A stretch of DNA of 64,000 bases, from contig CAIZFE010000004.1 of NCBI GenBank assembly GCA_903932145.1, forward strand, positions 1-64,000, given 5' to 3'. Position 1 is the stretch's first letter, and the number at the start of each line of letters is the position of its first letter. The stretch is from an uncultured Rhodopila sp. GTDB lineage: Bacteria; Pseudomonadota; Alphaproteobacteria; Acetobacterales; Acetobacteraceae. Positions 26,681 through 63,072 of the stretch are shown here, in pieces. The translations under genes were made by a program, and so were the position numbers. Under the pieces are notes generated by a model. The model was not told the DNA's origin, searched no databases, and saw only the letters and a program-made list of their open reading frames with translations.

Positions 26681-27058
26681 ATGAGCGACCTGTTCGCCCC
26701 CGAGGGCGGCTGGCGCGTCCGCATCCTGGATCTGTCCGGCGGTGCCCAGGACAACATCACCGAGGAAGTCGGCGGCTTCGACACGCTGATGCACGCCAAC
26801 GCCTTCGCCCGCCGCTACGTCCGCGACTCGGTCGAACGCTGCCGCGTTCCCGGCATGTCCTCCAAGGACGTGCTGGAAGCGTGGTTCGCCTTCGGTGAGG
26901 ACGCCGTCGTCATCGACGCCGAGGAGGGCGGCTGGAAAAGCGCCACCGAACTCGGTGACTTCGTGGATTCCCGAGCCAGCAGCGAGGACCGGGACTGGCG
27001 CGCGCTGGACCCGCGCCGGGAAGAACTCGATGCGGATCTGGACGAGGACGACGCATGA
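26681..27058 (+). CDS. Conserved-looking acidic hypothetical protein before the GluRS-like gene
   Basis: 125 residues, strongly acidic at the C-terminus (LDADLDEDDA). It opens with WRVRILDLSGGAQDNITEEVGGFDTLMHANAFARRYVRDSVERCR, an alternating strand-helix pattern, then a central LEAWFAFGEDAVVIDAEEG. No family recognised. Its stop overlaps the next gene's ATG (27055-27058), indicating a two-gene unit with the GluRS-like protein. Coding bias is strong, so it is real. Confidence 0.75.
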   Translation: MSDLFAPEGGWRVRILDLSGGAQDNITEEVGGFDTLMHANAFARRYVRDSVERCRVPGMSSKDVLEAWFAFGEDAVVIDAEEGGWKSATELGDFVDSRASSEDRDWRALDPRREELDADLDEDDA

Positions 27059-28374
27059 TCCGCGTCCGGTTCGCCCCTACCCCGACCGGCAATCTGTTCG
27101 TCAGCGGTCTAAGGGTGGCTTTGGCGAACTACCTGTTCGCCCGCCGCAACAGCGGCGAGATGCTGCTGCGGATTGACGATCTGGACCCGGAACGCTCCAT
27201 CCACGCCGACCAGATCATGCAGGATTTGCGCTGGGCGGGGATCGACTGGACCAATTCGTTCCGCCAGTCCGAACGGCTGGAGCTGTATCAGGACACCATC
27301 GAGGGATTAAAGAAGGACAAATTCATCTATCCCTGTTTTGAGTCCGACGAGGAACTGAAGGCCAAGGCGGAATTCCGCCGCAAGCGGAACCAGTCACCGA
27401 TTTACGACCGCGCCATGCTGAAGCTGACGGACAAGCAGCGTATGGACGCCGAGGCCGGTGGCAAGCGCCCGCATTGGCGCTTCAAGCTGTCCGGCCGCTC
27501 GCTGGAATGGACAGATATGATCCTGGGGCCGCGTAGCGCCATGCTGTCGGCGGTGTCCGACCCGGTCCTGGTGCGGGCGGATGGATCGCCCACGCCGATC
27601 CTGGCCAGCGTGGTCGATGACATCAATCATCGCACCACGCACATTATCCGAGCTGAGGATAATGCCGGGAACACGGCGGTGCAGATCGAATTGTTCCAGG
27701 TATTGCGCGGGCCGCAACCGCGAATGCGGTTCGGTCATCTGCCCGCGCTGACCGATAGCCAGGTTGGTTCGGCCACCGGTGGACGCCGCACCGGCAGCCT
27801 GCGCAGCCTGCGGGCCGATGGCGTCGAACCGTCGGCCATCGCGACCTGCCTGATCGGCAAGCTCCGCGACGGCGACGAACCGCTCTCGCTGGACGAACTG
27901 GCGCAGCGTTTCGAACTGGCCGATCTCACCGCATCCCGTTTCGATATTACCCGGATGCTGGCAATCAACCGGAACGTGCTGCATGGCCTGAGCTTCGCGG
28001 CGGTGGCCGATCGGTTGCCCCCCGGGGCGACGGAAGCATTCTGGTTGGCGGTTCGCGGTCATCTCGACCTGCTGAACGAAGCCCGCGGCTGGTGGGATGT
28101 CGTTGCCGGCACCATCGTGCCGCCGGTGGTTGAAGGCGCCCGCGACCTACTGTTGACGGCCGAATCATTGCTGCCGGCGGAACCGTGGGGCAATGACGTG
28201 TGGTCCACCTGGATGACAGCCCTGGAACAGGCCACGGGGCAAACCGGCGATAATCTTCTGGGGGTGCTGCGTCTGGCGTTGACCGGTGAGGATAGCGGTC
28301 CCGACCTACGCGGGCTGTTGCCGTTGATCGGCCGTCCCCGGGCCGCGAGCCGGCTGATAATCGCGGCATCCTGA
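27055..28374 (+). CDS. Glutamyl-tRNA synthetase paralogue with degraded catalytic signatures
   Basis: 439-residue class I GluRS-type protein: FAPTPTGNLF at the start, LLRIDDLDPERS, an intact TDMILGPRSA and VVDDINHRTTHIIRAEDNAGNT core, and a C-terminal anticodon-binding-like region. The two catalytic motifs are altered. The HIGH box reads FVSG where family members have HVGG or HIGN. The KMSKR loop (LSKRHG in other GluRS) is replaced by GSATGGRRTG. The frame is intact and GC3-biased, so the gene is maintained. It could be a tRNA-modifying or amino-acid-transferring paralogue, a regulator, or an aminoacylating enzyme with unusual motifs. A standard GltX is presumably elsewhere. Confidence 0.85.
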   Translation: MIRVRFAPTPTGNLFVSGLRVALANYLFARRNSGEMLLRIDDLDPERSIHADQIMQDLRWAGIDWTNSFRQSERLELYQDTIEGLKKDKFIYPCFESDEELKAKAEFRRKRNQSPIYDRAMLKLTDKQRMDAEAGGKRPHWRFKLSGRSLEWTDMILGPRSAMLSAVSDPVLVRADGSPTPILASVVDDINHRTTHIIRAEDNAGNTAVQIELFQVLRGPQPRMRFGHLPALTDSQVGSATGGRRTGSLRSLRADGVEPSAIATCLIGKLRDGDEPLSLDELAQRFELADLTASRFDITRMLAINRNVLHGLSFAAVADRLPPGATEAFWLAVRGHLDLLNEARGWWDVVAGTIVPPVVEGARDLLLTAESLLPAEPWGNDVWSTWMTALEQATGQTGDNLLGVLRLALTGEDSGPDLRGLLPLIGRPRAASRLIIAAS

Positions 28375-62976: not shown

Positions 62977-63072
62977 GGAGGAGAAGCGGCCCCGGTGGGC
63001 CGGCCGGACTTCAAACCCGGTTAGGGCTGCCCTGCAGCCCCGGGCAGGTTCGACTCCTGCTCTCTTCCGCCA
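62977..63072 (+). tRNA. selC: Selenocysteine tRNA (tRNA-Sec, anticodon TCA)
   Basis: 96 bases including an encoded CCA. An 8-base acceptor stem pairs GGAGGAGA (62977-62984) with TCTCTTCC (63061-63068), then G and CCA. The D-arm is a 6-base stem CGGCCC/GGGCCG, the anticodon loop is CTTCAAA with TCA, a long variable arm lies around GGGCTG...CAGCCC, and the T-arm has GTTCGACTC. These are the features that set tRNA-Sec apart from tRNA-Ser. The anticodon stem closes with an A-C mismatch next to the loop. It abuts selA. Confidence 0.95.

Follow-up and report, generated by a model that had tools for sequence, protein, structure and literature searches.

A GluRS2 descendant without its signature motifs, maintained across a GlnRS-bearing clade of Acetobacteraceae and probably kept for a non-catalytic role

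The window, a 64,000-nucleotide stretch of DNA from an uncultured Rhodopila sp., carries a two-gene unit: a gene for a small acidic protein, here called the partner, and a downstream gene for a glutamyl-tRNA synthetase (GluRS)-like protein, here called pseudo-GluRS2. The two genes share a stop/start overlap (Table 1). The frame of pseudo-GluRS2 is intact and GC3-biased, as the first-pass annotation had stated, with a GC3 of 0.79 (partner, 0.86) at a window GC of 0.64. Judging from the matches of L009 and G156 at an equal contig position, the genus of the window appears to include Acidisphaera sp. S103. Elsewhere, the window contains a selenocysteine tRNA gene (62977-63072, + strand; Rfam RF01852, 71.8 bits), for which ARAGORN reads the anticodon tca.

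Table 1. Features of the two-gene unit, in window positions. Identities are mean pairwise column identities of 27 eroded genus sequences versus 26 near intact relatives.
Feature	Position	Strand	Details
Acidic partner gene	26681..27058	+	125 aa, no assigned family
Pseudo-GluRS2 ORF	27055..28374	+	439 aa, ATG start, uninterrupted frame
ATGA stop/start overlap of partner and pseudo-GluRS2	27055..27058	+	
Former HIGH box, residues 15-18	27097..27108	+	FVSG replacing HVGN
Connective-peptide/acceptor-binding region, residues 89-160 (borders as we take them from the fold)	27319..27534	+	Identity 0.707 versus 0.762
Residue 181	27595..27597	+	Pro at the site of an invariant Tyr (121/121 intact, 0/43 GlnRS-clade)
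Former KMSKR loop, residues 238-247	27766..27795	+	GSATGGRRTG; Arg at 244 where the catalytic Lys is expected
Anticodon-binding region, residues 301-439	27955..28371	+	Identity 0.677 versus 0.695; PF19269

Pseudo-GluRS2 matches the Pfam family tRNA-synt_1c (E 2e-43) and, barely above the cut-off of 23.6 bits, Anticodon_2 (PF19269; 25.6 bits). Its score against TIGR00464 gltX_bact is 233 bits, below the cut-off of 289.95. The AlphaFold model (mean pLDDT 92.1) shows both the Rossmann and the anticodon-binding domain of the GluRS fold, and its top matches in the PDB are bacterial GluRSs, the closest being the non-discriminating GluRS 2cfo (E 2e-30). Orthology and a gene neighbourhood held in common with the GluRS2 of relatives identify the window protein as an orthologue or descendant of the alphaproteobacterial (Acetobacteraceae) GluRS2, and its orthologue is present in most of the 150 family genomes sampled. 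GluQ-RS is an active enzyme of about 300 aa that has no anticodon-binding domain. Identity with GluQ was rejected, because pseudo-GluRS2 is of full length with PF19269 and a distinct GluQ is encoded in its own genome.

The partner gave nothing above the cut-off against Pfam, DUF1416 scoring below it, and when 60 members of its family were scanned the best E was 0.011 (DUF1416, 29 members), plus a few single matches. No solved relative was found by sequence or by fold, the AlphaFold model (mean pLDDT 89.4) giving weak fold matches only, the best being ERH-2 (E 0.057, prob 0.54, TM 0.30). The partner is matched in 134/150 family genomes, and where both genes were found, the 4-base overlap occurs in 36/43 genus or other GlnRS-bearing loci and in 20/24 GlnRS-lacking loci. 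The suggestion that it is a cofactor was not borne out: the gene adjoins intact GluRS2 too, and it persists in three GlnRS-bearing genomes (G020, G049 and G104) that have no neighbouring GluRS2, so that an obligatory cofactor role finds no support. The partner is independent of GluRS2 catalysis and is not strictly tied to GluRS2. A separate observation comes from the GlnRS-bearing genome G106 (88% complete, 5% contamination), where another GluRS (HIGN and KRLSKR, 37% identity) stands next to the partner gene on the minus strand of L111 (988-2553), as if the GluRS2 slot had been refilled by a different GluRS.

A working GltX has an H-phi-G-X HIGH box and a KMSKR loop with the catalytic Lys. The first-pass annotation read these in the window protein as FVSG and GSATGGRRTG, and both readings were confirmed; the residues at 242-245, where the catalytic Lys belongs, are GGRR. 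The possibility that the genuine motifs lie elsewhere in the protein was checked by a whole-protein scan, which found neither HxG nor xSK; displaced motifs were thus rejected and the observation stands. In the model, residues 239-244 have a pLDDT below 50. Position 181, also altered, is the one we take to correspond to Tyr187 of T. thermophilus GluRS.

The loss was followed in relatives, drawn from a family sample of 150 Acetobacteraceae genomes, 23 of which have GlnRS above the cut-off, and from the genus of the window. The 172 loci gave 168 GluRS2 sequences, the four loci without a match being stretches fetched around the partner gene; the fragments L076 and L115 (genus), as well as L111, were removed before the tree and the conservation counts. 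Genomes in which no GlnRS was found gave 122 sequences, and 121 of these retain His and Gly of the HIGH box together with the loop residues S-K-R. Only G067 (85% complete, no GlnRS above the cut-off) departs from this: it has an LSRR loop, groups with the GlnRS clade and was excluded from the "intact" set of 121. Under a strict pattern (H[VIL]G plus K[LMIV]SKR) both motifs are matched in 79 of the 122, because in 38 others LSKR (or FSKR) is preceded by P, A, E, Q or the like, and a further five read HAG or HPG. Throughout the intact set, H15, G17, N18, T43, Y181, H203, S243, K244 and R245 are invariant (121/121), and residues 242-245 are L/F/V, S, K and R.

The picture is reversed in genomes that carry GlnRS. 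Neither strict pattern, HIGH or KMSKR, is matched by any of the 32 genus sequences (three have no coverage of the HIGH box and one none of the loop): His15 is found in 0/29 covering rows, and Lys244 is absent from all, being another residue in 28 and deleted in three, with one fragment ending before it. Outside the genus, 13 of 14 sequences from GlnRS-bearing genomes have no KMSKR, and nine of those 13 also have no strict HIGH box; the fourteenth, from G106, is the different GluRS described above and was not counted. Across the 43 GlnRS-clade sequences, K244 and Y181 are retained in none, N18 and H203 in one each, H15 in seven and G17 in nine, one row having no coverage of the HIGH box. Residue 244 is R in 37, G in one and a gap in five. 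The loss is therefore clade-wide and shared by relatives. Several genus sequences retain an LSRK-like loop, so residual activity may be possible there.

Purifying selection on the gene is strong, and it is not simply decaying. With the GY model, dN/dS is 0.064, 0.086 and 0.106 in eroded clades A, B and C, 0.055 in the close subclade B1 (tree length 0.87) and 0.097 in the whole genus (30 sequences), compared with 0.049-0.103 in intact GluRS2 sets. For the same genus the values are 0.060 for GlnRS (GY, 26 GlnRS, those of G143, G151, G168 and G173 having been excluded from the codon runs by a length filter) and 0.048 for the partner. The MG model gives higher values of similar magnitude, 0.066-0.135 for eroded and 0.089-0.150 for intact sets. 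The low dN/dS and the relatives with the same loss thus support the view of the first-pass annotation that a GluRS-like protein has been maintained although both of its signature motifs are missing.

Conservation was lost mainly where catalysis would take place. Intact relatives have 133 columns with a conservation of at least 95%, and in the GlnRS clade conservation drops under 50% in 13/30 of those within the active site and in 9/103 of the others (Fisher p 4.5e-5); the test is partly circular because the active-site segments were set after seeing the data. As a control, an intact clade of 40 that had been held out retains 0.965 and 0.949 of such columns, counted over the 142 conserved in the remaining intact rows rather than the 133 of the main test. 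When codons were split by the same segments, dN/dS for active-site and other codons was 0.032 and 0.106 in intact sequences; the eroded genus gave 0.067 and 0.100, and a set of 11 eroded sequences from other genera gave 0.158 and 0.112. By the identity measure of Table 1, the region around the KMSKR loop stands at 0.455 in the eroded genus versus 0.619 in near intact relatives. The active site has been freed from its special constraint and the remainder is held as before, which is the pattern of a pseudoenzyme: catalytic residues lost clade-wide, the rest of the protein under purifying selection.

These values weigh against a non-functional relic, made useless by GlnRS, that decays slowly with its frame held by the partner overlap. 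The dN/dS of 0.055-0.106 resembles that of intact GluRS2, also in the shallow subclade B1, where saturation should be slight; the 43 usable sequences are spread over nine genera; the losses are concentrated at the active site; and a 4-base overlap is unable to conserve 439 residues. On the other side, GluRS2 is dispensable in some genomes, since a close GluRS2 is missing from 6 of the 23 family genomes with GlnRS (G020, G049, G084, G104, G134 and G138, of which G134 is 85% complete). Shortened forms of 325-395 aa also occur (G033, G112, G155 and G178), and in most genus comparisons to the window the identity of GluRS2 is below that of GlnRS or the partner, an approximate measure in which the GlnRS of G143, G151, G168 and G173 was unusable. 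Based on dN/dS, a neutral relic was rejected as the main reading, and we regard it as unlikely.

Close full GluRS2 matches are also missing from 5/127 of the other family genomes (G031, G040, G092, G124 and G131), G131 having an intact-looking GluRS2 (HVGN) that is interrupted by a contig end. G031 (100% complete) and G092 (94%) have neither a close GluRS2 nor GlnRS above the cut-off, and their GluRS1 may be non-discriminating. In G062, a second GluRS2 copy is present, outside the sequence set.

In the literature, alphaproteobacterial GluRS2 is credited with supplying GatCAB with tRNA-Gln that carries Glu. The own genome of the window encodes a full GlnRS (704.9 bits; HLGH and LSKR), a GluRS1 with HIGG and KLSKR that is 33% identical to the window protein, a GluQ with HLGH and RLSKR, and GatB. 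In the genus, GlnRS was found in 31/33 genomes (30 above the cut-off); the two genomes without it (77% and 84% complete) gave nothing above the cut-off when searched at E 0.001. GatB matches likewise occur in 31/33 (29 above the cut-off), and AsnRS matches at E 1e-60 in 0/33, the own genome included. With GlnRS, an intact GluRS1 and GatB present and no AsnRS match, catalysis by GluRS2 looks redundant, and the GatB and AsnRS counts fit a GatCAB that serves Asn only.

The frequent presence of GatB in the genus would also suit a subunit that acts as a scaffold in an assembly with GatCAB or GluRS1, for which there are precedents in the T. maritima glutamine transamidosome 3al0, which contains GluRS, and in SLIMP (PMC10570016). 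However, nothing was seen that ties the gene physically or genetically to gatCAB or gltX1, and the genus genome G163 (80% complete) has GatB and no GluRS2 match. Such a subunit is, in our judgement, an improbable explanation.

Arginines at glutamate-binding positions remain in the GlnRS clade. GluRS binds the glutamate carboxylate via arginines (PMC7387524), and by our own mapping of the numbering in that paper these are R5, R39 and R199. They are kept in 40/43, 41/43 and 39/43 GlnRS-clade sequences, and in the genus of the window R5 is kept in 29/29 covered rows and R39 and R199 in 30/30; D188 is retained in 43/43 GlnRS-clade rows. The kept arginines may be structural, or they may mean that glutamate is still bound. 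Together with D188 and the R that replaces K244 in 37/43, they would be compatible with a re-purposed enzyme in which substitute residues still allow glutamate, or a relative of it, to be activated. Yet positions 15, 17, 18, 181, 203 and 243 vary in the clade to an extent that a working active site would hardly tolerate (position 15 is F, L, Y, T, V, H, S or P), and the KMSKR loop, which the model shows as disordered, is not of the same length in all genera. This makes continued activation quite unlikely, and the nature of the lost residues, namely the ATP site and the KMSKR loop, makes an amino-acid-activating role appear unlikely as well. Of the two options offered in the first-pass annotation, the re-purposed protein is favoured over a decaying one by dN/dS, whereas the loss of these residues counts against an amino-acid-transferring enzyme. 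Finally, intact relatives do exist, but a sequencing or assembly error in a single strain is hardly credible and was rejected, because the loss is found in every genus sequence covering the motifs and in 13 sequences of other genera, and also in Acidisphaera sp. S103 (L009), whose record is not marked as a MAG.

In a tree built without the active-site columns, from the 43 GlnRS-clade rows, G067 and 36 of the 121 intact rows picked at random, the presence of GlnRS requires one change, the loss of K244 one and the loss of H15 three. Because GlnRS was gained in one step and K244 lost in one step, their association is a single event. Statistical proof of the link between GlnRS and erosion failed in an independent-pairs test, in which just one independent pair was available. 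In a GlnRS tree that covers 30 of the 64 class GlnRS from outside the family, the 50 family GlnRS form one group with one outside member, with moderate support (92.7/77). There was probably one gain of GlnRS, followed by early loss of the catalytic Lys and piecemeal erosion afterwards. As to the cause, we argue from the logic of the pathway, in which Glu-tRNA(Gln) is no longer needed once GlnRS is present.

Among 64 GlnRS-bearing genomes of the class from outside the family, 59 have no GluRS2-scoring match at E 1e-60, judged by bit scores rather than a tree, so that short pieces could escape. The remaining five all keep LSKR: G504, G223 and G280 have whole proteins with a HIGH box, G411 has an N-terminally truncated protein and G231 a piece at a contig end. 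GlnRS alone, therefore, does not bring erosion. Outside the family GluRS2 is gone or not eroded, and the dead-but-kept copy is seen in this family only. The intact GluRS2 of G504, G223 and G280 (L251, L252 and L253) lies near frames that by eye resemble CysRS and NAD synthetase, and these genomes could be recent GlnRS gains before erosion. The GlnRS of G411, from another alphaproteobacterial family, nests within the Acetobacteraceae GlnRS, which suggests a transfer of GlnRS out of Acetobacteraceae; the truncated GluRS2 frame of this genome is at L254.

Taken together, pseudo-GluRS2 is probably a pseudo-synthetase that is maintained throughout the clade for something other than catalysis, tRNA binding being the likeliest role, as suggested by the retention of the fold, the acceptor-binding region, the anticodon region and the operon coupling. 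GluRS2 would formerly have made Glu-tRNA(Gln) for GatCAB. The arrival of GlnRS would have provided Gln-tRNA(Gln) directly and made the activity of GluRS2 redundant, and this activity would have been lost early in the clade, K244 first and the remaining residues afterwards. GatCAB would have been retained for Asn-tRNA(Asn). The protein itself would have been retained for a function that never needed catalysis, most likely the holding of tRNA (tRNA-Gln or tRNA-Glu), in which it might act as chaperone, competitor or regulator and might be complexed with another protein.

A tentative variant, to which we give a rather low probability, is an ATP-independent sensor of glutamate and/or of charged or uncharged tRNA that regulates something, perhaps with the translationally coupled partner. 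It is considered because the glutamate-binding arginines and the tRNA-contacting parts are kept and the ATP site is erased. If true, this would be a bacterial analogue of synthetase-derived sensors, one that arose after a single GlnRS gain.

The clade amounts to a natural experiment on the fate of tRNA-dependent amidation: GlnRS arrives, GatCAB stays, seemingly for Asn, the catalysis of GluRS2 goes and the protein often remains. A dead GluRS2 that is kept implies a second, non-catalytic function, which perhaps exists already in the active GluRS2 of GlnRS-lacking relatives. In practice, one copy of the "glutamate--tRNA ligase" in such genomes is probably no ligase.

Several known systems invite comparison. 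Like pseudo-GluRS2, GluQ-RS (YadB) is a GluRS paralogue whose fold has been put to another use; it differs in being active, shorter and free of an anticodon domain, and the own genome of the window has its separate GluQ with motifs. The nearest known system is the alphaproteobacterial GluRS2, which according to Dasgupta and Basu (2014; PMC3927822) is marked by H-phi-G-N and, when functional, is predicted to be tRNA-Gln-specific. The intact family relatives carry this mark, and the window protein shares with them orthology, length, domain order and the operon with the 125-aa gene; in contrast, H-phi-G-N (known) and LSKR (intact family) are both missing from it. According to the same paper, two Mesorhizobium and six epsilonproteobacterial genomes combine GluRS2 with GlnRS; its main text contains "KMSKR" 0 times, and its abstract and the sections consulted make no mention of eroded motifs. 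No report of an eroded GluRS2 in Acetobacteraceae was recognised in the open-licence PMC literature, PMC9437257 included, as represented mostly by titles and the starts of abstracts. Thermotoga maritima also has a second GluRS described as inactive: its GluRS2 charges neither tRNA, and its catalytic domain comes from a duplication and keeps H-phi-G-G (PMC3927822); PDB titles name the T. maritima enzyme a non-discriminating GluRS (3afh). In the clade of the window protein, the inactivation accompanies GlnRS. Finally, SLIMP is a catalytically dead SerRS paralogue of insect mitochondria that works with SerRS2alpha (PMC10570016). It resembles pseudo-GluRS2 in that the active site is ablated and the fold is kept across a wide group, and it differs in being a class II protein of a eukaryotic organelle that forms a heterodimer with a live SerRS, whereas pseudo-GluRS2 has no known live partner.
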